Shown piece by piece: positions 1 to 43,980 of a DNA stretch of 46,406 nt. Position 1 is the first letter of the stretch, and every line of letters begins with the position of its first letter. This DNA is from a virus. Location of the stretch: IMG/VR virus record IMGVR_UViG_3300032087_004063, positions 1 through 46,406 of that record. One strand, given 5' to 3'. The notes under the pieces were generated by a model. That model saw only the letters and a program-made list of their open reading frames with translations. It searched no databases and was not told where the DNA came from. The position numbers and the translations under genes were made by a program.

Positions 1-74
1 GCAGATTCAAACGCCGGTGATTTTCCCAGATAATCTGTAGTACCTAAACGTTTTCAATAACTTACAATCAACCA

Positions 75-788
75 TCACTTACGCATCATCCTTTTAATCT
101 GGTAGTCCAATCTATTCATATAAAATCTAGGCGCTTGTTCATAGGCTTTCTTGGTCGCTGGTGCTAGCCATGGCTTAGGCTTTGATATCACAGCTCTGTG
201 CTCTGTCTTGTATAGTCTATCCAACTGGTATCGCTTCTTGTTGCCCTTCACTCTGAATATGTTCGTCTCACCGTTGCGTTCTAACTCAATGAATCTTCTT
301 TTTGATTTAATAGCCTCTTGGATTAATGCCGCGTTACGCTCACGTCTAGGTAATTCTTTCATGCGCTTACTAGGCATCTTGAGCATATTCCTACGGTTAG
401 GCTTGCGTACTGGCTTGCGTCTAATCGTCTTGCCTTGCGCGCCACCTTTACGCTCACCTGATGCTACTGGTGTCGGTATAGCCACTGCCCCGGTAAATCT
501 ATCGGGCTGACTGATAAAGCCCTCCTCTTGCTTAGCCATATACCCCAACGTCGATCCAAACTCAGCAAGCGGCTTTCCCCGCTTCGCTTTATCAATCGGA
601 TTATTCCTTGGCGAGAGAGTCCACTTGTTCCTTACGGTGAAATTACGCTCTATTTGCTCCCGTGCTTGCGTACGCGCTTCGAAAGCTAAGTCATTGAGTG
701 TTTGCTCGGTTGCGATCTTAAAGCCCGTCTTGTTGGCTCTCAGGAGCTTTAACTCGTATTGTCGTAATTGTTTAGTATCTATTTCCAT
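75..788 (-). CDS. putative minor tail / neck protein (gpZ- or gp10-like)
   Basis: A basic 237-residue protein. The N-terminal helix is followed by a central stretch reading GSTLGYMAKQEEGF and then IPTPVASGERKGG. A YMAKQEEG segment followed by an IPT motif and an arginine-rich stretch is the pattern I associate with phage minor tail or neck proteins (gpZ/HK97 gp10 style), which bridge head and tail. That family link is recall of a pattern, not a search. The start at 788 has GGAG six bases upstream. It lies far from the other structural genes in linear coordinates, but on a circular map it is transcribed in the same direction as the late cluster. It sits just beyond the terminator hairpin of the upstream gene, so it needs read-through or its own promoter. 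It converges on the rightward ORF that would end at base 40. Confidence 0.5.
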   Translation of the reverse strand: MEIDTKQLRQYELKLLRANKTGFKIATEQTLNDLAFEARTQAREQIERNFTVRNKWTLSPRNNPIDKAKRGKPLAEFGSTLGYMAKQEEGFISQPDRFTGAVAIPTPVASGERKGGAQGKTIRRKPVRKPNRRNMLKMPSKRMKELPRRERNAALIQEAIKSKRRFIELERNGETNIFRVKGNKKRYQLDRLYKTEHRAVISKPKPWLAPATKKAYEQAPRFYMNRLDYQIKRMMRK

Positions 789-800
789 GCTAGCTCCAAA

Positions 801-827
801 TAAAAAGCCCTATCGTGTGATAGGGCT
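801..827 (-). terminator. Rho-independent terminator after the 851-1333 gene
   Basis: A perfect 9-bp stem (AGCCCTATC at 806-814, GATAGGGCT at 819-827) has a GTGT loop. On the minus strand it is followed by five T residues (801-805). It lies between two leftward genes, so transcription of the downstream tail-like gene must read through it. Confidence 0.8.
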
Positions 828-850
828 AGTTTAGCATGTGACCAAAATAA

Positions 851-1333
851 CTACCGCCAAACCTTAACGCTCAACATTCCTGACTTACCAAGTTTGCAAA
901 TCCCTTTAACACCATTCAGCTCAGTCGGTTTAGTGTTGCCTGTCCATGCTTTGCCGTTCTTGCCTGTGTCGATGTACATCTTGCAAACTAGGCCTAGATC
1001 GTTACCTGCTTTTAATAGCTCAATATCAAGCGGTTGATTGCTCCACACTTTTATTGCTTTGACCTTTGTGTCTTCTGGTCGGCAAATGCTCACGATATCC
1101 CCATAAGCATCATGATGACTTCGGCCATCTCTTCGGTGCGTGTGCATCATTGAACCAGCTTGAGGTAAATCAATCCATAACCTAGCCTCTGCAATATCTC
1201 CATGATTAAAGGTCACTACATCAGTAACACTCGTTACATGTCCAACATTGCCATTGGATAATAAAACCGATGTGCCGATCAACAAGTCGTTTAGGTTTTT
1301 CAGCTTACCTGCTGGTATTAGTTTTTTAGTCAT
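851..1333 (-). CDS. hypothetical protein, first leftward gene from the control region
   Basis: A 160-residue protein that I do not recognise. Its N-terminal half is rich in valine, glycine and threonine (SNGNVGHVTSVTDVVTF), suggesting a beta-barrel fold. It also has a histidine-rich segment, MMHTHRRDGRSHHD, around residues 62-75 that could bind metal or nucleic acid. The C-terminal half has evenly spaced lysines and glycines. The gene begins at an ATG preceded by an ACAGGAC-type ribosome binding site and has a good promoter at 1367-1395, whose -35 box lies inside the repeat array. It ends at a strong terminator. Because it is the only leftward gene served by the control region, a regulatory or origin-related role is possible but unproven. 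Confidence 0.75.
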   Translation of the reverse strand: MTKKLIPAGKLKNLNDLLIGTSVLLSNGNVGHVTSVTDVVTFNHGDIAEARLWIDLPQAGSMMHTHRRDGRSHHDAYGDIVSICRPEDTKVKAIKVWSNQPLDIELLKAGNDLGLVCKMYIDTGKNGKAWTGNTKPTELNGVKGICKLGKSGMLSVKVWR

Positions 1334-1366
1334 TGCCGTTTAGTCCTGTTTTGTTTGTGTGTTTGA

Positions 1367-1395
1367 ATAATAAAACAAAGTTAAGCACAAATCAA
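1367..1395 (-). promoter_or_regulatory. leftward promoter in the iteron region
   Basis: Reading the minus strand, TTGATT (1395-1390), a 17-base spacer and TATTAT (1372-1367) match a sigma-70 promoter. The -35 box overlaps the first CAAATCA copy (1388-1394), so a protein bound to the repeats would block it. Confidence 0.6.
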
Positions 1396-1732
1396 CGTCA
1401 AACGTTCAAATCACAGCAAATCACACAACCATGATTTGACTATGATTTCCCCAGCCCTTGCTACATAAGGGCTCGCAGCTCAAATCACAAATCACACTCT
1501 AATATAAAGATGTTTAATATTTATTATTATAAATAAAGGGGTATAAGGGGAAAGCACTGGTTATTTATACAGTAAAAAAATTAAGAGAAAAATAATTGTA
1601 TTTATTTCTGATAAGCGATGATTTGATGATTTGATGATTTGACACAAAAAATCCTTACAAATCAGTAAGTCGCAAGTCATACGATGCTGTGATTTGACTT
1701 TATGATTTGCCAAATCATGATTTGATGATTGA
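1388..1732. repeat. iteron array TGATTTG/CAAATCA; candidate origin or operator cluster
   Basis: The 7-mer TGATTTG occurs exactly at 1432, 1619, 1627, 1635, 1690, 1703 and 1718. Its complement CAAATCA occurs at 1388, 1407, 1417, 1481, 1488, 1658 and 1711. That is 14 exact copies in about 340 bases; near-copies lie at 1443, 1673 and 1726. Three copies at 1619-1641 are in tandem with an 8-base period, and 1711-1724 is a back-to-back inverted pair. Between the two groups lies a very AT-rich stretch (about 1500-1620) that could unwind. A 7-bp hairpin (1453-1459 with 1467-1473) lies inside the left group. The 1334-1799 stretch has no gene. Iterons for a replication initiator, or operators for the divergent promoters, both fit. 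Confidence 0.85.
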
Positions 1733-1799: not shown

Positions 1800-2027
1800 A
1801 TGAAAAAACTGACACCAGAAGAAGCCCAAGCTCTAACCATGACAAAAACAGCGTTATTCATCAGTTGGGTTAACGATGTGGAACCATATGACTCTGTGCT
1901 TGTTGAGCTACCAGAAGACACTGGATTTCAAACATTCCGAACAACAGTGAACCGTTACTACAAAGGTGAGCGCTCTTTCTCAATGAAGAAAACGCCAAAA
2001 GGCATCGTAGTTACTCGAATCAAGTAG
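1800..2027 (+). CDS. small early protein, unknown
   Basis: A 75-residue protein and the first gene of the rightward replication operon. It has an N-terminal helix (KKLTPEEAQALTMTKTALFI) and then a compact segment with a basic, aromatic-containing C-terminal half (RTTVNRYYKGERSFSMKKTPKGIVVTRIK) compatible with DNA binding. The ribosome binding site is AAGGAAA. It ends ten bases before the primase start. I do not recognise a family. Its place immediately after the iteron array makes it a reasonable candidate for a repeat-binding or replication accessory protein, but that is inference only. Confidence 0.7.
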   Translation: MKKLTPEEAQALTMTKTALFISWVNDVEPYDSVLVELPEDTGFQTFRTTVNRYYKGERSFSMKKTPKGIVVTRIK

Positions 2028-2036
2028 GTATTGGAT

Positions 2037-4349
2037 ATGATCTACGAGAGCGCAAAGAAATACCATGATGCTGGACTGTCGCTAGTCAACTTGCATCCTA
2101 TAGAAAATGGTAAGTGCGGGTGTGGCAATCCTGACTGCAAAATGGCAGGTAAGCACCCACAAAATTCCAACTGGCAAATAATGATAGGCATGAGCAATCA
2201 ATTTGAGCTTATTGAGAACTACCACAACTTCAACATGCTGTGCACTGGTTTTGGATGGTTATTGGAAGACCACCACTTGGTTGTGGATGTAGACCCAAAG
2301 AATGGCGGTTTTGAATCGTTCGATAAACTATGTGAAAAGGTGCCACAACTAAAAGAATGTGGAGTTGGTGTTAAAACTGGTGGAGGCGGATTCCACCTTT
2401 ACTACAACAAGCCTGCAGAACTTGATGTCCGTGGTACTCATCCTGATTACCCTGGCATCGACTTTAAACACAAAGGAGGCTTTGTTGTTGCTGGTGGCTC
2501 ATTACATAACAGCGGTAAATACTACACGATTGACCATTGTTATGATGATGACCTAACAAACCTTGATGATGCACCAGTTGAACTACTGTCAATCATTGAA
2601 AAAGTTGTGTGCACTAGGGATTTTGAAGGAGATTTTGAAGGAGATTTGTCCGAGGTTGTTTCGTACATACCAAACAATGATGACCACTATGACGACTTCA
2701 TTGAAATAGGCATGGCCATCCATGACACCGATCCAAATGCTTATCCACTATGGGAGGCGTGGGCCTCTAAATCATCAAAGTTTGATGAAGCTGAAATGTT
2801 GGTTAAATGGGATTCGTTTGGCAAAAACCCTAGCCGTGTAACCATTGGTACGTTGATTAAAAAAGCAATAGAGCATGGTTACAAGTTGCCAGCAAAAGGC
2901 GGGACTAAAGTTGTAATACCTGACGACTACGACCCAGAAGATGATTTATGTACTAACCACATTGATATTCTAAAACCCCACGGTCTTATTGGGGATATTG
3001 TCAGCTTCATTAACGCTAACGCACACAGACAGCGCCCAGCTATTGCCGTGCTATCTGCATTGTGGGGCTTGGGTTCAGTGATGGGTAAAATGTACATTGC
3101 TCCCAATGGAGTTAGGCCAAACCTGATCACTTTGTCTATTGCTGCCTCAGGAACTGGTAAAAATGCACCGCTTGGTTTTGCGCGTGACATCCTATTGTCT
3201 TGTGGTGTTGGTGAAGCTTTGCACGGCAGTATTTCATCAGCTCCAGAGATGAACAATAACGTGGTTGACCACCAGCATGCATTTTACGCTGTCGATGAGG
3301 TGCATAGAATATTCAGTGCATCAGACGACCCAAGAGCGCCAGCTTATTACAAGGCCGTTAACGATACGCTTATGACTCAGTACACCGATAGCCGCCTAGT
3401 GCTCCGTGGTAACGATGCTATAGCGCTTAAATCTAAGATATCAAAGAGCATTGCACACCTTGAAGCATCGATTGAGGATGCAGAGAAGGGCCTAGAGTTT
3501 ATTGTTAAAACTCAAATTGAACTTGAAAAAAAGAAGATGGATTACGTTAAAAACGGCGTTCCAGATCCATTCATGAGTTTTTACGGCACATCTACACCAG
3601 TTAACCTCGATGGACTTGTCACACCTGGAAATATCGCATCTGGCTTAGTTGGCCGCTCGATAATACTAAAGGAATACGATAACTATCCACCAGCTACGAG
3701 TTATGGCCTTGGAAGTAGCATGCTTAAAAAGGAGTTGCCAAGCGAAATAAAAGAGCGAGTTAAAAATATATACCTGAAAGGTAGAGCGCAAGACAGAACA
3801 GTGACATGGCGAGAAGATTACGGTTTAGAGTTTTGGGGTGAGCCTATTGTCGTTGGTGCAACTGACGAAGCTATGGCCCTGAGTTCTAAAATACATGCTT
3901 ACTTCGACTCAATGGGGTACAAGGCCACATCTTCTGCACAGCCGCTTTACACGAGGGCTTTCGAGTTAGTGGTAAAGGTGGCGATGATCATTGCGGCTGA
4001 AAGTGGAATGATGAACAAAGAAGACCTTATGTACGCCTTTGCCCTAATCAAATCTGATATCTCCACAAAGATTGCCTTGCTTCATGTCGCGGAGGGTGAT
4101 GAGAAGGGCTCTAGTTCAGATGATAGAGAAAAGGCTCTGTTAATTCGACTGTCAGAACTTTGTTCCACAAAGGGAGGGCTTACAAGGGGCCAGATAAAAG
4201 ACCGTACGAAGAAGAAGTACAAAGAGGAGGATGTAAAGGCAGCCATTAGCAAGTTGGTAGATTCTGGACACATCCAGAAGGAAGAATTTGTGGGTGGGAA
4301 CAATAAAAAGACAATTAGATACACAACATCGAAAAAATTAGAACTTTAG
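2037..4349 (+). CDS. bifunctional primase-polymerase / DUF3987-type helicase primase
   Basis: About 770 residues. Residues 1-190 form an archaeo-eukaryotic Prim-Pol domain. It has a Cys/His cluster (CGCGNPDCKMAGKHP), the metal-binding motif VVDVDP near residue 85, GGGGFHLYY with the catalytic-type histidine near 120, and GIDFKHKGGFVVAGGS near 142. Residues about 210-285 look like a PriCT-2 linker domain (IGMAIHDTDPNAYPLWEAW). From about 315 a DUF3987-like ATPase follows, with the P-loop AASGTGKNAP near 370 and YAVDEVH as Walker B. The family synthesises primers and unwinds DNA at the fork. The ATG at 2037 has AGG eight bases upstream; the in-frame TTG at 2031 is too close to that site. A 12-bp direct repeat at 2619-2642 encodes DFEGDFEG in the interdomain linker. 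Confidence 0.9.
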   Translation: MIYESAKKYHDAGLSLVNLHPIENGKCGCGNPDCKMAGKHPQNSNWQIMIGMSNQFELIENYHNFNMLCTGFGWLLEDHHLVVDVDPKNGGFESFDKLCEKVPQLKECGVGVKTGGGGFHLYYNKPAELDVRGTHPDYPGIDFKHKGGFVVAGGSLHNSGKYYTIDHCYDDDLTNLDDAPVELLSIIEKVVCTRDFEGDFEGDLSEVVSYIPNNDDHYDDFIEIGMAIHDTDPNAYPLWEAWASKSSKFDEAEMLVKWDSFGKNPSRVTIGTLIKKAIEHGYKLPAKGGTKVVIPDDYDPEDDLCTNHIDILKPHGLIGDIVSFINANAHRQRPAIAVLSALWGLGSVMGKMYIAPNGVRPNLITLSIAASGTGKNAPLGFARDILLSCGVGEALHGSISSAPEMNNNVVDHQHAFYAVDEVHRIFSASDDPRAPAYYKAVNDTLMTQYTDSRLVLRGNDAIALKSKISKSIAHLEASIEDAEKGLEFIVKTQIELEKKKMDYVKNGVPDPFMSFYGTSTPVNLDGLVTPGNIASGLVGRSIILKEYDNYPPATSYGLGSSMLKKELPSEIKERVKNIYLKGRAQDRTVTWREDYGLEFWGEPIVVGATDEAMALSSKIHAYFDSMGYKATSSAQPLYTRAFELVVKVAMIIAAESGMMNKEDLMYAFALIKSDISTKIALLHVAEGDEKGSSSDDREKALLIRLSELCSTKGGLTRGQIKDRTKKKYKEEDVKAAISKLVDSGHIQKEEFVGGNNKKTIRYTTSKKLEL

Positions 4350-4412: not shown

Positions 4413-5192
4413 ATGAGCTTATTTGAAAAACTATCACAACCTACCAAACAGCCAGTCATGGCAGTTATCGCAGGTGAGCAAGGTCTAGGTAAAACATCAC
4501 TAGGCGCACTAATGCCAAAGCCTGTAATGATTCGCACGGAAGACGGTGCAAGTGCTATTGAGGGAATGGATGTTCAAATGTTCCCGGTAGCAAAAAGCAT
4601 TAATGATGTTTACGAGCAGATCAAAATGCTTGCAACTGAAGAGCACGACTTTAAAACGCTTCTTGTGGACTCAACCACGGCCTTTGATTCACTGGCAGTG
4701 CTAGACGTACAAACGCGAAACAAGACAGCCAACCTATCAGCGTGTGACGGCGGTTTTGGTGGTGGATACCACACAGTACGCGCTGAGCATGAAAAGCTTT
4801 TAAATCGCTGCAAACGTCTTAGTGATGAAAAGAGAATGAACATTATGTTTATCTCACACGTTGAAACTGAAGAGATGAACCCGCCGGATGCAGAGTCTTA
4901 TACTCGATACAACATCCAGTTAACTAAAACAAAGTCGGTTGATTGCTCAAAGGTTTATACAAACAACTGTGATCTTGTGGCATTCATGAAGATGGTGACT
5001 TATGTCGTAGATGGCAAAGCTAAGTCTGACGGTTCACGCGTACTAACATGTTACCCAAGTGCAGCGCACGTAAGTAAAAACCGATACAAAATCACTGAAG
5101 ATCTACCGTTTGAAGAAGGTGTTAACCCATTCAACGGAATTATCAAACAACTAACTACTAAAACAGTAACTAAACAAGAAGAAGGTAAATAA
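4413..5192 (+). CDS. Sak4-like RecA-fold ATPase (AAA_24 type)
   Basis: A 259-residue P-loop ATPase. The Walker A motif GEQGLGKTS lies near residues 21-29. TLLVDSTTAF near 81-90 is Walker B, and IMFISHVE near 145-152 is the RecA-type strand with the conserved polar end. Proteins of this type are short RecA cousins that anneal or pair single strands during phage recombination, normally with a dedicated ssDNA-binding partner. Here that partner gene follows after one base, and a Cas4-like nuclease comes next, which is the usual Sak4 module. A local promoter at 4352-4380 gives it expression independent of the primase. The C-terminus (about 200-259) is basic and threonine-rich. Confidence 0.85.
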   Translation: MSLFEKLSQPTKQPVMAVIAGEQGLGKTSLGALMPKPVMIRTEDGASAIEGMDVQMFPVAKSINDVYEQIKMLATEEHDFKTLLVDSTTAFDSLAVLDVQTRNKTANLSACDGGFGGGYHTVRAEHEKLLNRCKRLSDEKRMNIMFISHVETEEMNPPDAESYTRYNIQLTKTKSVDCSKVYTNNCDLVAFMKMVTYVVDGKAKSDGSRVLTCYPSAAHVSKNRYKITEDLPFEEGVNPFNGIIKQLTTKTVTKQEEGK

Positions 5193-5193
5193 T

Positions 5194-5745
5194 ATGGGAT
5201 TTTTCGACCAGTTCGCACATGAAGGCAAAAAAGTAGACGGCTCTGAAGAGAACGCAACAGTAGTAACATCATCAATTGTACCAGGTGGCACCAAAGCAGT
5301 TGCTATGCTTGAAAGCGTTAAATGGGATGAGTACGAAGGCAACCGCAAAGTTAAGGCGCAATGGAAAATTGCTGCAGGTACTTTCACAGGCCGCGTTGTA
5401 TTCCAGAATATTGAGTTATTCGCTAAGAAGTTCGGCACTCAAGAAGCTGACGAAAAGAAAGCATTTCGAGCTGCTAACGTCCTAAAACGTCTATTCATGC
5501 TAACAGGTGCACCAATCCCGGATGCAGAGCCAACAGACGCAGACTTTGCACAAATGGTTGGCAAGATGGCGGGCATCTCAATTGAGCTTTGGGAAATGAA
5601 CGGAAAAAGCGGTAACTGGATCTCAGAGATTCAACCGAGCAAAGGTTTTGAAAGTGTAGACGGTACTGAAATGCCAACGGGTAACACTAGCTCTGCTGCT
5701 GGGACTGCTGGACAGCCTGAGCTATCTGGTGATGACGATTGGTAA
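5194..5745 (+). CDS. single-stranded DNA-binding protein (DUF669-like)
   Basis: A 183-residue protein. The first 130 residues alternate beta-strand-like segments (KAVAMLESVKWDEY, KVKAQWKIAAGTFTGRVVFQ) with a helical stretch rich in lysine and alanine. Residues about 150-183 form a disordered Ser/Thr/Gly tail ending in the acidic, aromatic tip LSGDDDW. An OB-like core with a disordered linker and acidic aromatic tip is how SSB proteins recruit partners. Its place one base after a Sak4-like ATPase supports the assignment to the DUF669 group, which often accompanies Sak4. I identify the family from layout and sequence style, so a different small replication factor is possible. Confidence 0.7.
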   Translation: MGFFDQFAHEGKKVDGSEENATVVTSSIVPGGTKAVAMLESVKWDEYEGNRKVKAQWKIAAGTFTGRVVFQNIELFAKKFGTQEADEKKAFRAANVLKRLFMLTGAPIPDAEPTDADFAQMVGKMAGISIELWEMNGKSGNWISEIQPSKGFESVDGTEMPTGNTSSAAGTAGQPELSGDDDW

Positions 5746-5761
5746 AAACTAGATAAAAAAA

Positions 5762-5783
5762 TAGGGCCGTAATAGCGGCCCTA
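5762..5783. other. hairpin between the SSB-like and nuclease genes
   Basis: AGGGCCG (5763-5769) pairs with CGGCCCT (5776-5782) across a TAATAG loop, extended by T5762-A5783. No T-run follows on the plus strand, but A-rich sequence precedes it. It would therefore terminate leftward, not rightward, transcription. On the rightward message it could protect the 3' end of the SSB message or partly attenuate it. Confidence 0.5.
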
Positions 5784-5811
5784 ATAACATCGTCAAACGA
5801 GAGGTAATCAA

Positions 5812-6879
5812 ATGTCTAAGACAACTATAGCACAAGCTATTGATCTTGCCTATGAGCAGGACAAGAACGGCAGCGACCGCAAACACTTGGGAATGAGCCA
5901 GATAGGTGCAGAGTGTGAGCGTCAAATCTGGTACTCATTCAACAAGGCAAAAACAGTTCAGCACAGCGGTCGATTACTTCGACTTTTCCAGTTTGGGCAT
6001 GATATGGAGCAAGGCTTTGCTGATCTATTAAAAAGCATTGGCTTTCGTGTTTACCTTGATAACCCAGCAACCGGTGAACAATTCCACGTACAAGACCCAG
6101 ATAATAAGTTTTTTAGTGGTTCACTTGATGGTGTGGCCGTATCTCCAAGTGATGTTGAATTTGATGGTGTAGAACCTGACACGGCTTACTTGGTTGACTA
6201 CAAGACAGCAAACAAAAGCAGTTTCAACCAGTTTGTAAAAAAAGGTCTTTTCGATTGGAATATTAAGTATTACCTGCAGCTTATTTGCTATATGGGCTTT
6301 AGTGATCAACTTGGCAAAAAACCCATTCGTGATGCAATGATTTTTGTTTTCAACAAAGACAACCACGAGATAGCAACAGAGACCATTAAGTTTAACCAAG
6401 AATTATTTGATGCAATGCGAGCTAGAGCATTCATGATTGTTGAATCAGAAAAGCCGCCAGTTCGAATCAGTGACGATCCAGAAAACTTTAAGTGTCGATT
6501 TTGTGATTACAAAGAAATATGCCACGGGGAAGAGTTAGCCGAGCCATCATGCAGACTGTGCGGATTCTGCCAGAAGAAAGCGGCTAAAGGTGAGCGATGC
6601 GAAAAGGGTTACAAGCTTACACCATGCGCTGAGCACATATACAACCCTAATGTGTTTGAGGATGATTTTATACCAATCCAGTACCACATGGATGATGGCG
6701 CTATGGAGTACGACGCGATTGTTAACGCCCCAGCACGAAATAAAGACAAGTTTGGCGATAAGCCAGTATTGACCAGTAAAGAGATTTACGAGCTTTACCT
6801 ACAGAACGATGACAAAGAGCTTATCGATACTATCCTTGAGTTCGCCGGTAAATTTGACGCGGGAGTCGATTGGTTATGA
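5812..6879 (+). CDS. Cas4-like PD-(D/E)XK nuclease
   Basis: A 355-residue protein. GMSQIGAECERQIWY near residue 27 resembles the Cas4/RecB-type entry with its first cysteine. SGSLDGVAV near 102 and YLVDYKTANK near 124 supply the aspartate and the D-x-K of the PD-(D/E)XK active site. The YLQLICYMG segment contains the following conserved glutamine. After residue 220 the cluster CRFCDYKEIC then CRLCGFC could carry an iron-sulphur cluster or zinc. Members of this family degrade or resect DNA ends. The neighbours, a recombinase-like ATPase and an ssDNA-binding protein, fit a recombination module. The last 85 residues have no motif I recognise. The stop overlaps the helicase start in an ATGA. Confidence 0.85.
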   Translation: MSKTTIAQAIDLAYEQDKNGSDRKHLGMSQIGAECERQIWYSFNKAKTVQHSGRLLRLFQFGHDMEQGFADLLKSIGFRVYLDNPATGEQFHVQDPDNKFFSGSLDGVAVSPSDVEFDGVEPDTAYLVDYKTANKSSFNQFVKKGLFDWNIKYYLQLICYMGFSDQLGKKPIRDAMIFVFNKDNHEIATETIKFNQELFDAMRARAFMIVESEKPPVRISDDPENFKCRFCDYKEICHGEELAEPSCRLCGFCQKKAAKGERCEKGYKLTPCAEHIYNPNVFEDDFIPIQYHMDDGAMEYDAIVNAPARNKDKFGDKPVLTSKEIYELYLQNDDKELIDTILEFAGKFDAGVDWL

Positions 6880-8291
6880 TTAACCTAAAACTAAAACAGC
6901 AAGAAGCGCTAGGTTTAATGAAAACGGGCGCCAACGTATTTCTAACAGGTAAAGCTGGCACAGGTAAATCATTTGTTACCGATCTATTTACCGAGTGGGC
7001 CAATGAGCAAGAAAAAAACATATTGATTTGTGCACCAACGGGAATCGCTGCGCTCAATATCGGCGGGGCAACAATACACAGAACATTCAAGCTTCCTATC
7101 AACTACGTATCAGACAGCAGCCATCTATATTCATCAAATGAAGGTAGAGCGCTTATTGAAGCTGCAGACATTGTGTTGATTGATGAAGTGTCAATGCTAC
7201 GCGCTGATACATTCTCACACGTTGAATACAAGATGAGAGAGTCTGTGCTAAGTGGTTCGGCTTTCGGAGGTAAGCAAATCGTTGTAGTCGGCGACTTCTA
7301 CCAATTGCCTCCTGTCATTAAGAATGAAGAGCGTGCAGATTTAAAGGCGCACTTTGGTGGAAGCTACGCGTTTGAATGCCAGGCGTGGAAAGATGCCAAG
7401 TTTCAAATGATTGAGTTAGATGAAGTGGTTAGGCAAAGCGATCTTGAGTTTGTAGACGCGCTGAACTCCGTTCGTGAGAAGAACGCGCACAGCAACAAAT
7501 CATTGGGTTACATAAACCATAACGCCAATGGCGACTTAATGGAAAATGACGTTGTCACTTTGTGCTTTACCAATAAGGTTGCGGAGCAGATCAACAAAAA
7601 AGAATTAGCAAAGATTGAAGCGCTACCCGTTGAATTTATCGCTTCAGTTACTGGAACAGTAAAAGAAAGTGAAAAACCAGTACCAGAGCACCTTGAGTTA
7701 AAGGTAGGCGCAAAGGTTATATTTTGCGTTAACGATCAGGATGGGCGCTTTGTTAATGGCACCACTGGCTATGTAACAGGTTTTGATGGTGACTTTATTG
7801 TTATCGATGACAGCATTAACCTGGATAAAAACACTTGGGAAGTGACAGAGCCAAAGCTAAATGAGCTAACCGGAAAGATTGAGCACGATGTTATCGGTAC
7901 ATACCAGCAATACCCGGTTAAGTTGGCGTGGGCGATCACGATACATAAGTCACAAGGTCAGACTATAAAGGGCCGAGTTCACATGCAAATGGACGGCAGC
8001 TTTCGACCTCATGGCGCTTTGTACGTTGCATTGTCTCGATGTACTGACATTAACAATCTTAGCCTTGAGCGCGAGCTAGGCGCTTATGATTTGGTTGTTG
8101 ATGAGAGTGTTAGAACTGCGTTGCTGTCAATGAGTCCAGGTGTCACAACGATTGAGATCCCCGCGTATTCAATCGGGCTATTCGAAAAACTAAAAGAAGT
8201 GATCGAACTAAACCCTAGCGAGAACCAATTAAATGCAATGCTGAAGAGATTAGGAGATTGGGAGGATAAATTATCATGCCAAAAATACTAA
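6876..8291 (+). CDS. Pif1/RecD2-like superfamily 1 DNA helicase
   Basis: About 471 residues. Walker A is GKAGTGKSF near residue 26, motif Ia is APTGIAALNIGGATIHRTF, Walker B is VLIDEVSML, motif III is VVGDFYQLPPV, and near the C-terminus AITIHKSQGQT and YVALSRC are motifs V and VI. This is the complete set for a Pif1-type 5'-3' helicase, as in T4 Dda. It probably acts at forks or in recombination. The ATG at 6876 overlaps the upstream stop (ATGA); the longer TTG start adds only two residues and is less likely. The 3' end overlaps the next helicase gene by 16 bases, so translation of the three genes is coupled. Confidence 0.9.
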   Translation: MINLKLKQQEALGLMKTGANVFLTGKAGTGKSFVTDLFTEWANEQEKNILICAPTGIAALNIGGATIHRTFKLPINYVSDSSHLYSSNEGRALIEAADIVLIDEVSMLRADTFSHVEYKMRESVLSGSAFGGKQIVVVGDFYQLPPVIKNEERADLKAHFGGSYAFECQAWKDAKFQMIELDEVVRQSDLEFVDALNSVREKNAHSNKSLGYINHNANGDLMENDVVTLCFTNKVAEQINKKELAKIEALPVEFIASVTGTVKESEKPVPEHLELKVGAKVIFCVNDQDGRFVNGTTGYVTGFDGDFIVIDDSINLDKNTWEVTEPKLNELTGKIEHDVIGTYQQYPVKLAWAITIHKSQGQTIKGRVHMQMDGSFRPHGALYVALSRCTDINNLSLERELGAYDLVVDESVRTALLSMSPGVTTIEIPAYSIGLFEKLKEVIELNPSENQLNAMLKRLGDWEDKLSCQKY

Positions 8292-9967
8292 GGCCGTACC
8301 AAGCTGAAGCGGTGGCAAACACCATCGCTCAACTTAAAAAGTCACCAGAGCCATGTTTGATTGATGCCTCGGTTAGTGCAGGTAAAACTTTGATCGTTGC
8401 CGCTTTAATGAAGGCTATGGAAGATAATAACCGCAACTCTTTATGCTTATCTATGAGCTCAGAGCTTATAGAGCAAAACTCCGATGAGTACGCAGACTAC
8501 GCTCACAAGTGTTCAGTATTTTGCGCTGGATTGGGTAAAAAGAACTGGCGACTACCTGCGGTATTTTCCACGCCACAAACATTATGGGCCGCAATAAAGA
8601 AAGGCCATAAGATTGCAAAGAAAAAGTTTTCTTTAATCACCATTGATGAGTGTCACAACGTAAACGCTAATGACGATAAAACCACGTACATGAAGATCAT
8701 TAGCCACTATCAAGAGATAAACCCAGGTATCCGTATTGTAGGCCTAACTGGAACACCTTTCCGTGGTAAAGGTACGTCAATCCTTGGTGATGAAAAGTTT
8801 TTCAAACACAAGACTGCAGATATCAGTCTAAAGTGGCTAACAGAAAATAATTTTGTTGTGCCTATTAAGTACGGCAACCATGAGGCAACTGATTATGACT
8901 TTTCAGATTGTAAACTGCAGAGCAATGGCAAATTTCGCGCAAGCGATCTAGAGAAAGCAAGTGAAGGTAAGGGCCGTTTAACTGCAGATATCGTGAACGA
9001 GGTAGTGAAAAACTCACAAGACCGTGGAGGCGTGATCATCTTTGGATCAACCATTGCACACTGTGAGGAAATATTATCATCACTACCAACTGGTATTAGC
9101 GCGATCATCACAGGCAAGACACCAGATAAAGAACGTGCAGATATCGTGCGCAAAGTAAAAAGTGGTGAGATTAAATACATTGTTAATTTATCGGTTTTAA
9201 CTACTGGCTTTAATGCTCCAGTCATCGACCATGTTGTTTTCATGCGCCCCACTGAGTCAGCGGTATTATGGGTTCAAGCTGCAGGGCGTGGCGTTCGCCA
9301 ACTGGAAGGAAAAGACCATTGTTTGGTTTCTGACTATGCGAACAACCTAGACAGACTTGGTGATGTTGACAATCCAATGATCACAGAGATGGTTAAGACT
9401 CGCGATCTTGAAGTTGAAAAAGAGGTGCCGTGTCCAGAGTGTGGTGAGCTAAATACTATCTTTGCGCGTCGATGTGTTGGTTTCGTTGGCCAAGTTAGAT
9501 GTGGTTTTTTCTTTAGCTTCAATGAGTGTCCAAAATGTGAAACCAAAAACGATGCTACCGCTAAAAACTGCCGTTGCTGTAATTTTGAGTTAATTGATCC
9601 AAACCAGAAGTTAACAAGAAAAGCGGCATTTCGCGTTGGCGTTGAGCCTGTAAGAGTGCAGTTAATTGGCACTGAGTACACTAGGCACAAGAAGAAAGGA
9701 AAAGTTGATACATTACGCGTTGATTACATGTATGAGCGACCAGACGGGAACGCAGACACATTAAGCGAGTGGTTCAGCCCAGACGGTGAAGGCTATCCAT
9801 TGCATTTATTTAAACGTGAGTTTGTCGCTAAACATGCACCAGAGCTAGATGGTCACAGCTTGGATATGGTACTAGCAAGTAAGCATCTAATAAAAAGCCC
9901 TAAGTCGCTGCTAATTAATAAACAGGTTGGCAGCAAGTATTTTTCGATCGTGTTGAAGGAATTTTAA
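8276..9967 (+). CDS. superfamily 2 DEAD/DEAH-type helicase with C-terminal zinc ribbons
   Basis: A 563-residue protein. The N-terminus has LRPYQAEAV (Q-like motif) and P-loop DASVSAGKT near residue 30. DECHN is motif II, GLTGTPFRGKG motif III, and QAAGRGVRQ motif VI. Residues 375-440 contain CPECGELN then CPKCETKN and CRCC, a pair of zinc-ribbon modules. The SF2 core resembles the UvsW or RecG-like/type III restriction helicases that remodel branched DNA. With the VRR-NUC gene six bases downstream, a role in processing recombination intermediates is likely. The ATG at 8276 lies inside the end of the previous gene. No key motif is missing. Confidence 0.88.
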   Translation: MPKILRPYQAEAVANTIAQLKKSPEPCLIDASVSAGKTLIVAALMKAMEDNNRNSLCLSMSSELIEQNSDEYADYAHKCSVFCAGLGKKNWRLPAVFSTPQTLWAAIKKGHKIAKKKFSLITIDECHNVNANDDKTTYMKIISHYQEINPGIRIVGLTGTPFRGKGTSILGDEKFFKHKTADISLKWLTENNFVVPIKYGNHEATDYDFSDCKLQSNGKFRASDLEKASEGKGRLTADIVNEVVKNSQDRGGVIIFGSTIAHCEEILSSLPTGISAIITGKTPDKERADIVRKVKSGEIKYIVNLSVLTTGFNAPVIDHVVFMRPTESAVLWVQAAGRGVRQLEGKDHCLVSDYANNLDRLGDVDNPMITEMVKTRDLEVEKEVPCPECGELNTIFARRCVGFVGQVRCGFFFSFNECPKCETKNDATAKNCRCCNFELIDPNQKLTRKAAFRVGVEPVRVQLIGTEYTRHKKKGKVDTLRVDYMYERPDGNADTLSEWFSPDGEGYPLHLFKREFVAKHAPELDGHSLDMVLASKHLIKSPKSLLINKQVGSKYFSIVLKEF

Positions 9968-9972
9968 TTTCA

Positions 9973-10389
9973 ATGAAAATATCAAAAGGTAGTCAGTACA
10001 AAGTTTACGGTGATCTATCATCAAGAGGTAAATGTATTAGTGAAGATGCAGTTCACATTGCCTTTGTGGCGTGGATTAGGCATAACCACCAGAGCGAAGC
10101 GTTACTTTTGTTGCATCCAAAAAATGAGGGGAAACGCACACCTCAGCAAGTTGCAATGGATAAAAAGATGGGGAGCATCACAAAAGGAGCAAGCGACATA
10201 ATCATACCTGGCAATCCTGCATTTGTATGTGAGCTAAAAAGAGACGATCCAACCAAGTGCCACTGGCAACCAGGTCAAGAGGATTATTTGAATATCGCTC
10301 ACGAACACGGCGCCTTTGCTTGTGTTGCTTTCGGCCTCAATGCTGCTAAGGATGCATTTATAGACTGGCAGCGTATAAACAACCAATAA
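9973..10389 (+). CDS. VRR-NUC domain nuclease
   Basis: A 138-residue protein with the short VRR-NUC fold. It has an N-terminal acidic SEDAVHIAFVAWIR, then HPKNEGKR, then KGASDIIIP with the catalytic aspartate, AFVCELKRDD with the E-x-K, and WQPGQEDYL with the conserved glutamine. Stand-alone VRR-NUC proteins are structure-specific nucleases for branched DNA such as Holliday junctions. It is the last gene of the replication/recombination module, following a branch-migration-type helicase, and is closed by a strong terminator. Confidence 0.88.
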   Translation: MKISKGSQYKVYGDLSSRGKCISEDAVHIAFVAWIRHNHQSEALLLLHPKNEGKRTPQQVAMDKKMGSITKGASDIIIPGNPAFVCELKRDDPTKCHWQPGQEDYLNIAHEHGAFACVAFGLNAAKDAFIDWQRINNQ

Positions 10390-10394
10390 CCCAC

Positions 10395-10420
10395 ACCCCT
10401 TCCAGTAAGGGGTTTTTATT
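10395..10420 (+). terminator. terminator of the replication module
   Basis: ACCCCTT (10395-10401) pairs with AAGGGGT (10407-10413) around a CCAGT loop. The T-rich tail TTTTTATT (10413-10420) follows directly. It is a canonical rightward terminator. Confidence 0.9.
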
Positions 10421-10459
10421 GCCTGCCTTAAATAAATTCACGTTAATGAATAAAATATG

Positions 10460-10488
10460 TTGACGATAATTAATTAAATGTCTATTAT
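10460..10488 (+). promoter_or_regulatory. strong promoter of the accessory operon
   Basis: TTGACG (10460-10465), a 17-base spacer and TATTAT (10483-10488) match sigma-70 closely. The leader that follows contains ATCGAAAC, then AACAGGACGAATGA, then the ATG. The DenV promoter at 20.5 kb has a nearly identical leader. Confidence 0.8.
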
Positions 10489-10532
10489 TGCTTTATCGAA
10501 ACGAAACACACTAAACAACAGGACGAATGATT

Positions 10533-10952
10533 ATGACTAAGCAACAAGCACTTAAAGCAATGAACGAAGCAACAAACGAAATGGCTCGCATGACTGAAGG
10601 TTCAGACCTTTACAACGCAGCAAAAGCTAAACACGTTCAAGCCAAAGCGGCTCTAATTGCAATCATGAATTCTGAGTCTGTTGAAATTGAAGTTGAAGCG
10701 GCAGAAGTTGAACTAACAGAAATCGTTTCTAACGTAGAAGTACGTAACAACGAGCTAGTATCTAACGCTGGCGTAAACACAAACTCAATCATTGGCGCCA
10801 TCGCTTCGGGTTCAATTAGCACACAGACACCAGAGGAAACGCAGCGCATCTATGAGTTAAAGCAACTACTAATGGCAAGCAGTCAATACATTAGACAGGC
10901 AGCAAGACAGAGAAACCTAGCGAGAGTTGCGGCTAGAAATTCCAGAGCATAA
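10533..10952 (+). CDS. hypothetical alanine/glutamate-rich protein
   Basis: A 139-residue protein from the ATG at 10533, which has AGGA nine bases upstream; the ATG at 10527 is only three bases from that site. Residues 1-45 are helical (KQQALKAMNEATNEMARM). A beta-like acidic stretch (EIEVEAAEVELTEIVSN) follows, then a Ser/Thr/Asn-rich linker, and the C-terminal 40 residues are a basic helix (YIRQAARQRNLARVAARNSRA). I recognise no family. It is the first gene behind the strongest promoter in the window, so it is probably made early and abundantly. Such proteins often target host functions, but there is no direct evidence here. Confidence 0.7.
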   Translation: MTKQQALKAMNEATNEMARMTEGSDLYNAAKAKHVQAKAALIAIMNSESVEIEVEAAEVELTEIVSNVEVRNNELVSNAGVNTNSIIGAIASGSISTQTPEETQRIYELKQLLMASSQYIRQAARQRNLARVAARNSRA

Positions 10953-10967
10953 ACAGGACACAAACCA

Positions 10968-42021: not shown

Positions 42022-43980
42022 TTATTGTTCGTAGAAAACGGGTAAGCCGTCATTACCTGTTTTGCAGTAATCGAAAAATTCAATCCAATTCACTATGTCA
42101 CGACCCGATTGTCGAATCATGATATCCCAAGCCAGAATGTCGAGCGTAGCGTTATTGTACACAAGTAAATCCCAGTTCTCGTTATCACCTTTACGCTCCC
42201 ATTTAAATCCTTGAATAGCACCAGTAACTGGATCTTTAACTGGAACTTTAGTTTCAGCTTTGAACTCCATCATTTGTTCTCGAGTCATGTCGATCGGGAA
42301 GTTAATACAGTATTCATGCTGCATTTCTGGCTCTGACCACTTACGGTTTAATGATGAGTACCATCTATCCTTGTACATATTTGTGTTCAAATGCGCTACT
42401 GGTACACCAAGTTTTGTCTCTGTCATCTTAAATTCTGAGAATGTAGACCCCTTTTGCGCGCCGTGTAGGCCCTTAATTGGGATCACCCCGTCAGTGTCGT
42501 AACAAAATTCTAGTACTTCATGTTGAGCGTAACCGGAATCTATGGCGGTTAATTGAATTCGATACCTTTTTCCATCATCTGCAGTGTAGACTTTGTTGTA
42601 GATCATCTCTTTCAGCTTAACCCAAGGCTCTGACTGCAGGTTGTGGCAATCACCATACAATCTAAACGAGTCAACCAAGAAAGATCGGTTTCTGTCGGCC
42701 CATCCGTAAACGGCAACGGCAAGGTTTGATTTATGAACATCGACTGCGCAAGTTAGTACTAATATTTCACTACCACAATGCTTCACAGCAAAGTTGTTTG
42801 GCACTTCACCAAGTCTATATGCTGTGCGTCTGTGTGATGCTACGCCGCTGTATTTAAGTCTGTCTGTCAGTACTTCAAACGGTTCGCCAAGGACATTGTT
42901 GTAAAAGGTTCTAAGCTTGTCATTATCTCTTGATTCGTTCTTTACTACGTCCCAGCACTCAAACCAATCTCTTACACAAGCCTCGAAGCTCTTCATGCCG
43001 ACTGGTGAGTAAAGTGCGTTAATGAAATAGCTGCGCCTTGTCTTATCTTCACACTCTGCAGTAGCTCTCCATTCTCCATTGTTTAGCATCTTGGTTTTAT
43101 CAGCGTTCTTGTGTGGCTCTCCACAGTACTTGCAAACGTACCTAACTGAATCAATATCAAGCCTTCCATTATCGTGCTCAAATATCAGGCCGTAGTTTGC
43201 GCCAGTCTCTTTATCTCGCTTGAACCACTCGAGCGTCTGCATCATTTCGCATTTCTTGCATGGAACAAAATACTTACGTTGATCACCAAGCTTGTAGTTG
43301 TCGTCAATAATTGAATTGCCTTTTTCAAGAGGCGTTGACAGCATACAAACTTTTTTAGATTGCGTATAACCTGCAGTACGGTCTATTGCTAGCTTTACCG
43401 GAGAACCATCTCGACCAACTGATTTTTTATAGCCGTCAACTTCATCAAGAAATAGGTACTGAATAGAGAATGAGCGAAGCTTACCCGGCGAGTTACTACC
43501 AAAGAATAAGCCATAGCCACCACCGAACCATGATAAACGGTCTTTTGTCTTGCCTGTTTTGCGTCCGTTAGTTTCTGCATCGTTCGCTTGAATTAGGTGA
43601 TCGAGGTTTGAATGCTGCAACATGGGCCCAATATTCTGTTCTAGTCTCAGCTTGGCCACGGTATCGTCAACAGTTAAGATCATGGCTGGCGCATTCTTTA
43701 CGTGAGCTATGCAGTACAACAGGCCGGATTCGACTAGGGCCACGGTTGCTCCAACTTGTGCACTTTTTTTAACGGCTATCGTTCTGATTGGAGAAGACAA
43801 GGAAAGGCAGTCCACAACCTCACGCCAAAACGGAGTCACATCAAACGAGTAATAGCCGGGCATTGGCGACACGCTGGCGGGTAAATACCGTGTTGATTCT
43901 GTAAATTCAGAAACAGACAAAACGTTGTGCGTATCTTTTAGGGCGCTGAACTGATCAATTAGCCATTCGCTATCATTCAT
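42022..43980 (-). CDS. terminase large subunit (lambda gpA family)
   Basis: A 652-residue protein. The gpA-type opening LPASVSPMPGYYSFDVTPFW is followed by Walker A VKKSAQVGATVA near residue 72 and FLDEVDGYKKSVGRDG as Walker B. A zinc-ribbon-like CKKCEMMQTLEWF and CKYCGEPH appear near 245-290. The nuclease part has CAVDVHKSNLAVAVYGW and AIDSGYAQHEVLEF with the metal-binding aspartates. It pumps DNA into the head and makes the cut at cos or pac. It is longer than T4-type enzymes, as expected for the gpA group. Confidence 0.94.
   Translation of the reverse strand: MNDSEWLIDQFSALKDTHNVLSVSEFTESTRYLPASVSPMPGYYSFDVTPFWREVVDCLSLSSPIRTIAVKKSAQVGATVALVESGLLYCIAHVKNAPAMILTVDDTVAKLRLEQNIGPMLQHSNLDHLIQANDAETNGRKTGKTKDRLSWFGGGYGLFFGSNSPGKLRSFSIQYLFLDEVDGYKKSVGRDGSPVKLAIDRTAGYTQSKKVCMLSTPLEKGNSIIDDNYKLGDQRKYFVPCKKCEMMQTLEWFKRDKETGANYGLIFEHDNGRLDIDSVRYVCKYCGEPHKNADKTKMLNNGEWRATAECEDKTRRSYFINALYSPVGMKSFEACVRDWFECWDVVKNESRDNDKLRTFYNNVLGEPFEVLTDRLKYSGVASHRRTAYRLGEVPNNFAVKHCGSEILVLTCAVDVHKSNLAVAVYGWADRNRSFLVDSFRLYGDCHNLQSEPWVKLKEMIYNKVYTADDGKRYRIQLTAIDSGYAQHEVLEFCYDTDGVIPIKGLHGAQKGSTFSEFKMTETKLGVPVAHLNTNMYKDRWYSSLNRKWSEPEMQHEYCINFPIDMTREQMMEFKAETKVPVKDPVTGAIQGFKWERKGDNENWDLLVYNNATLDILAWDIMIRQSGRDIVNWIEFFDYCKTGNDGLPVFYEQ

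Follow-up and report, generated by a model that had tools for sequence, protein, structure and literature searches.

What purpose is served by the dense cluster of short repeats close to the left end of the IMG/VR virus record IMGVR_UViG_3300032087_004063? This 46.4-kb record (positions 1 to 46,406), hereafter the window, carries between positions 1388 and 1724 an array of iterons, copies of the 7-mer TGATTTG in both orientations, which precedes the gene for a 772-aa protein (2031–4349, plus strand) that is predicted to combine a primase-polymerase (PrimPol), a PriCT2 domain, a helicase and a C-terminal winged helix. The array is, in our assessment, likely to be the bidirectional replication origin of the phage, of the kind found in phage-inducible chromosomal islands (PICI) and Staphylococcus aureus pathogenicity islands (SaPI), and to be read by the C-terminal domain of the PrimPol-helicase itself. 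A previous sequence-only reading had suggested a candidate replication origin at this locus, and the suggestion is now well supported by the minimum of the GC skew, by a layout that is kept next to homologous PrimPol-helicase genes, and by the co-exchange of the array with the helicase and C-terminal half of the gene.

An exact motif search places TGATTTG on the plus strand at 1432, 1619, 1627, 1635, 1690, 1703 and 1718, and CAAATCA, the same motif on the minus strand, at 1388, 1407, 1417, 1481, 1488, 1658 and 1711. These 14 copies, 7 per strand, compare with 21 in the remaining ~46 kb of the window; at the rate observed in the rest of the window, a 345-bp stretch should contain 0.157 copies (Poisson P(≥14) = 6e-23), so that the sequence-only reading was right to place the count far above chance. 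In no 350-bp stretch of the window does another 7-mer occur more than 8 times, and the next most frequent 7-mers are overlapping variants of TGATTTG. As had been described, the copies form two groups around an AT-rich core. The left group (1388–1494) comprises 6 copies, five CAAATCA and one opposite TGATTTG at 1432, and ends in an inner pair on the minus strand with the copies 7 bp apart (1481/1488), whereas the right group (1619–1724) has 6 of its 8 copies on the plus strand, such that the two groups are mostly opposed in direction. The right group opens with a head-to-tail triple, TGATTTGATGATTTGATGATTTG (1619–1641, plus strand), in which the previously noted 8-base period is exact (copies at 1619, 1627 and 1635), followed by the outer copies (1658–1724; TGATTTG at 1690, 1703 and 1718, CAAATCA at 1658 and 1711) and a degenerate copy at ~1730. 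Between the groups, the sequence at 1501–1610 is 80% AT and is the probable unwinding region, with CTAATATA at its left edge (1499–1506, plus strand). No DnaA boxes (TTWTNCACA) were detected in 1334–1800, nor any consensus sites for the integration host factor in the array core.

Close relatives share this layout, in several cases with a different motif. Vibrio phage 1.174.O, with a primase 97% identical to that of the window, shares its TGATTTG array, the 8-bp triple included. MAG7, Vibrio phages 1.124.O and 1.164.O (records L003 and L004), 13VT501A and IMGVR_3300035070_002886 (L007) encode primases that are 59–63% identical to that of the window and carry GGAAAAATG arrays in the same place; the MAG7 record starts inside the array region, so that the left part of its array falls outside the record. 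In an alignment of six phages (the window, 1.174.O, 1.124.O, 1.164.O, L007 and 13VT501A), the two kinds of iterons occupy the same columns, the left 7-bp pair and the right 8-bp triple are kept, with GGAAAAATGGAAAAATGGAAAAATG in the place of the triple in the phages of the GGAAAAATG type, and CTAATATA is invariant whatever the iteron type. Given that columns, spacing and core are the same while the motif differs, all copies appear to have been re-spelled with the geometry and the core kept. The gene to the left of the array, in contrast, varies, being a 160-aa gene in the window, a ribonuclease-H-like gene in 1.164.O and a terminase-large-subunit neighbour in 13VT501A. In H188 and 1.246.O, which have much more distant primases, no such array was found in the gap tested.

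Two sets of annotations or matches were set aside. A CRISPR array is annotated in 1.124.O and 1.164.O, but the feature, 42 bp long, coincides with a portion of the GGAAAAATG iterons and does not consist of long identical repeats with unique spacers of one length; the corresponding ‘CRISPR spacer’ non-coding RNA, at 1627–1668 in both L003 and L004, is probably misannotated. Two IMG/VR contigs that contain the exact TGATTTG triple, L021 and L022, were rejected as relatives, being simple tandem repeats with nothing else in common with the window.

The comparison with L007 shows that the array did not change alone. By BLASTN, the two genomes are 93% identical over window positions 1–1379, 87% over 2037–3013, which is the PrimPol and PriCT2 half of the gene (plus strand; the same comparison holds for L023, again across different iterons), and 96% over 4413–10535. 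Left unaligned are 1380–2036, with the array and a 75-aa gene, and 3014–4344 (plus strand), with the helicase and the C-terminus, which has no BLASTN match in L007 or L023 despite flanks that are 93–96% identical. Within the first 11.5 kb, alignment fails elsewhere only at an extra L007 gene beside 4413 and over ~430 bp at 10536–10967. The two exchanged blocks are not adjacent, the conserved PrimPol half lying in between, and such a paired exchange is the trace that a matched pair of origin and initiator would be expected to leave. At the protein level, the window and the GGAAAAATG group are 83–94% identical in the PrimPol domain and 78–87% in PriCT2, compared to 45–46% in the helicase and 34–36% in the C-terminus; 13VT501A and L007, which both carry GGAAAAATG, are 83% and 76% identical in the latter two parts, respectively.

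The 772-aa protein is the probable initiator. Pfam detects the Prim-Pol (6e-14) and PriCT_2 (1e-15) domains and, unlike in the alpha protein of P4, no TOPRIM-type primase domain, and the protein matches phrog_3022 (‘DNA primase’) over its whole length (1.6e-90). When its AlphaFold2 model (mean pLDDT 83.5) was searched with Foldseek, the N-terminal half matched the PrimPols of NrS-1 (N300) and pRN1, and the remainder matched MCM helicases (E ~1e-4, probability 1.0) with low TM-scores (0.2–0.3). A DUF3987 match at E≤1 was obtained for 24 of 28 family members, the window protein itself reaching only 0.11. The C-terminus of the model has the predicted topology of a winged helix (helices 696–710, 719–726 and 732–744, strands 748–754 and 760–766), and one family member matches the MCM_C winged helix (E 0.0037). 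A PDB sequence search with the primase profile returned nothing significant, and no relatives of the primase were found in GTDB genomes with the patterns used.

Natural variants point to this winged helix (residues ~695–772; 4113–4346, plus strand) as the most likely reader of the iterons, all cases being correlational. The enzymes of L063 and L102 are 97% identical in the helicase and 80% in the C-terminus and are accompanied by different iterons (ACCAAGCAAT and ACGGATAGTT, respectively, on one strand); the DNA identity between these two is lowered at three places, namely the array, the PriCT2 part and the C-terminus. Across nine enzymes that are 98–99% identical, 27 residues vary; the last 58 aa account for 9 of these, most of them in the predicted wing, against 2.1 expected (p 1.4e-4). 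In three loci with near-identical enzymes and readable arrays, L070, L072 and L073, the array lies downstream of the primase gene and the outer iterons differ. In L067 (5871–6287) and L074 (5837–6256), ORFs (open reading frames) of 138–139 aa that follow the primase-helicase gene carry a copy of its C-terminal winged helix at their end, and the arrays lie beyond these ORFs; here a stand-alone putative reader domain adjoins a second array. As a separate observation, some outer iterons of L070, L072 and L073 have a 10-bp period (CCAATGTAGG, GAAGGTTAGC), possibly indicating a second reader of the outer sites.

The geometry of the array extends well beyond the close relatives. Among IMG/VR and phage records with primases 29–40% identical to that of the window, we detected ~20 further array types, which consist of other 7–9-mers and adjoin the primase gene on either side. 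Of the 29 arrayed loci, 17 have the array upstream of this gene and 12 downstream. In 22 dereplicated arrays, with random placement as the null model, the distances between copies on the same strand show peaks at 8 bp (25, with 5.3 expected) and 11 bp (18, with 4.3 expected), and those between copies on opposite strands show none. Pairs spaced by 7–9 bp lie closer to the array centre than those spaced by 10–12 bp (p 3e-5), and opposed inner pairs are present on both sides in 10 of the 18 arrays with a definable centre, the clearest case being H103 (−4808 −4819 / −4875 −4882 / +4936 +4943 / +5009 +5020). The cores of most sister arrays are AT-rich too, several of them only slightly. With a motif of 7–9 bp, an inner spacing of 7–8 bp and an outer spacing of 10–19 bp, these arrays are unlike the helix-phased direct iterons of ~20–22 bp in classical plasmid origins; the contrast that the sequence-only reading drew with iterons of 20–22 bases is borne out, 8 bp being a recurrent inner spacing in ~20 array types.

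From these observations, we infer a mechanism in which the C-terminal winged helices of the PrimPol-helicase would bind the opposed inner iterons and, because the two iteron sets face opposite ways, probably one helicase ring would assemble per side, with the two rings face to face on either side of the AT-rich core. This core would then melt, and the PrimPol half would prime both forks, starting replication in both directions; over the course of evolution, the iteron sequence and the reader domain would change together, whereas the spacing and the core would be kept. Given that 8 bp is about three quarters of a helical turn, neighbouring sites point different ways, which would suit ring domains around the DNA, although this argument is purely geometric. 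A ring-forming helicase with one winged helix per subunit appears to fit the predicted protein better than a filament, which had been suggested earlier. We put forward more tentatively, as a possibility that we would not yet favour, that the arrays represent a class of origins widespread among phages and built on a fixed dyad geometry, with pairs of 8 bp inside and 11 bp outside on opposed strands, on which an MCM-like PrimPol-helicase would load itself onto duplex DNA as two facing rings, and in which all iterons would be rewritten at once along with a few wing residues. If this is true, rewriting the iterons together with the wing residues would stop closely related phages from firing each other's origins.

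Several observations weigh against the assignment of the array as an origin that is read by the C-terminal winged helix. The C-termini of L072 and L073 are 94% identical although their outer iterons are clearly different, so that either few residues must set the specificity or a second reader takes the outer sites. The genome is mosaic elsewhere too and the exchange is a single event in the lineage, so that the linkage of the two blocks could be a coincidence. The 22 arrays in the spacing test were chosen by eye from an automatic list, and the strict array test was passed by only 29 of the 97 loci at the sensitivity used, many of the loci being incomplete. The cumulative GC skew is lowest, for the window as a whole, at ~2 kb, with a sign change at 1–3 kb; this agrees with an origin and with the switch at ~1.5 kb that had been proposed as a check, but is confounded with gene direction. 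Finally, the 75-aa gene lies within the same exchanged block as the array (1380–2036), and its product is hence a rival candidate for the reader. An origin at which the 75-aa protein (1800–2027) reads the iterons and then recruits the primase-helicase is nevertheless an unlikely arrangement, the C-terminus of the 772-aa protein being the likelier of the two readers. Its sequence is 42–43% identical between the TGATTTG phages and the group of 1.124.O, 1.164.O and MAG7, and certain distant relatives (L013 and L017) encode small regulators ahead of the primase, both of which would fit such a role; yet the GGAAAAATG array of 13VT501A is accompanied, at the position of the 75-aa gene, by an 84-aa ORF that is unrelated (22% when aligned; BLASTP gives no match), the array follows the primase gene in many arrayed relatives, and the model of the 75-aa protein gives no match to a DNA-binding fold or to any PDB fold at E≤0.001.

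The array is intergenic between divergent genes, as would be a repressor or activator site that controls the 160-aa gene and the replication operon and is not an origin. The sequence-only reading had both divergent −35 boxes overlapping the outermost copies; this holds for the leftward box (TTGATT, 1395–1390), which overlaps the copy at 1388, but not for the only acceptable rightward box (TTGATA, 1729–1734), which lies outside the last exact copy (1718–1724) and touches the degenerate copy at 1730. Promoter-like matches near the array are at chance level (4 found vs 3.5 expected), the position downstream of the primase in 12 of 29 arrayed loci does not suit an operator, the array layout is constant although the left-hand gene changes, and the strand-opposed layout around the AT-rich core would be left unexplained. 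We accordingly consider an operator array improbable and find little support for the previously suggested switch with divergent promoters; autoregulation alongside the origin function is possible. The iterons might also be template start sites for the PrimPol itself, like the 8-nt recognition sequence on which priming by the NrS-1 polymerase depends (PMC7102993), the two enzymes being of the same PrimPol fold class (Foldseek match to N300), but this is very improbable, given that the PrimPol is 93–94% identical between phages with completely different iterons and that the NrS-1 genome is reported to hold only two copies of the 8-nt sequence and no array. Least probable of all is a packaging (pac/cos) or other structural signal: in 13VT501A, the array is near the terminase genes, but in the window, the terminase large subunit gene lies at 42022–43980 and, across relatives, the array accompanies the primase gene, not the terminase.

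The preferred reading, an origin bound by its own PrimPol-helicase, has partial counterparts in known systems. PICI and SaPI encode an initiator that includes primase and helicase and has a C-terminal origin-binding domain, their iterons differ between elements, and for the SaPI Rep, binding in the form of two hexamers is described (PMC6092414; PMC7581432). The window resembles these elements in the joining of primase and helicase in one putative initiator and in iterons that vary between elements, and its predicted C-terminal winged helix, which varies along with the iterons, may correspond to their origin-binding domain, but PICI/SaPI origins are located immediately 3' of rep, whereas the window array is 5' of its gene; PICI and SaPI are satellite islands that need the particles of helper phages, whereas the window is a tailed phage with its own capsid and packaging genes; and the SaPI Reps contain DUF927 or D5-type helicases, whereas the window protein contains a PrimPol with PriCT2 and a helicase that is weakly DUF3987/MCM-like. 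An 8/11-bp inner and outer spacing is not described for PICI/SaPI origins in the accessible text of these sources. The P4 alpha protein primes, unwinds and binds origin repeats with a C-terminal winged helix (PMC4234260); the likeness is that one protein combines these activities with such a domain (predicted here), and the difference is a TOPRIM-type primase in P4 and a PrimPol here. The PrimPol-helicases of NrS-1 and pRN1 share the PrimPol fold of the N-terminal half and, in the case of pRN1, also a C-terminal winged helix, but the suggested origin of pRN1 is a stem-loop without iterons, and in NrS-1 the 8-nt priming sequence occurs twice (PMC7102993, PMC4234260).

The same domain order as in the window protein, PrimPol, PriCT-1/2, ATPase and C-terminal winged helix in one chain, is found in the PrimPol-PV1 or DUF3987 enzymes (PrimQH, all3500), which have a DUF3987/MCM-like ATPase and a winged helix proposed to recognise the origin; the accessible part of that paper does not describe cognate origins for the DUF3987-type PrimPol-PV1, to which the present analysis adds candidate origins and linked variation (PMC5862659). 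The Cch2-CCPol-MP system of the staphylococcal cassette chromosome SCCmec relies, as is proposed here, on a self-loading helicase with a C-terminal domain that binds a few short direct repeats beside the gene, but involves separate polypeptides, 5-nt iterons in three copies and a D5-type helicase (PMC7581432). In the open-access literature, we found no paper that treats PrimPol or DUF3987 together with iterons and no mapped origin of a PrimPol-helicase phage; the origins of these phages are largely unmapped. New here are a candidate origin in this phage class, its fixed geometry with spacings of 8 and 11 bp, and the linked changes in the iterons and their proposed reader. The conserved geometry offers a simple way to find the origins of PrimPol-helicase phages, and near-identical phages that differ only in the iterons and the reader are ready-made swaps for the identification of origin-reading residues. 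The findings also suggest a single-polypeptide MCM-like loader, which would allow the assembly of double rings to be followed on natural DNA.

The 75-aa ORF (1800–2027, plus strand), between the array and the primase, is predicted to fold as helix-strand-helix-hairpin and belongs to no known family, and no relatives of its product were found in IMG/VR with the patterns used. The 160-aa protein (851–1333), also of no known family, is encoded divergently from the array and is kept in L007, with other genes in its place elsewhere; neither protein has a convincing PHROG match. Downstream of the 772-aa gene are genes for a Sak4-like annealing protein, a single-stranded DNA-binding protein, a Cas4-like exonuclease and helicases, and, in addition to the terminase large subunit, the window encodes a portal, a head protease and tail proteins. 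Between the primase and the Sak4-like gene, L007 has an extra gene (6305–6892, ≤195 aa) that is missing in the window; MAG7, 1.124.O and 1.164.O have an annotated gene of about the same size at this position. The unaligned segment at 10536–10967, around a 141-aa ORF (10527–10952), represents an exchanged gene relative to the otherwise 93–96% identical L007.
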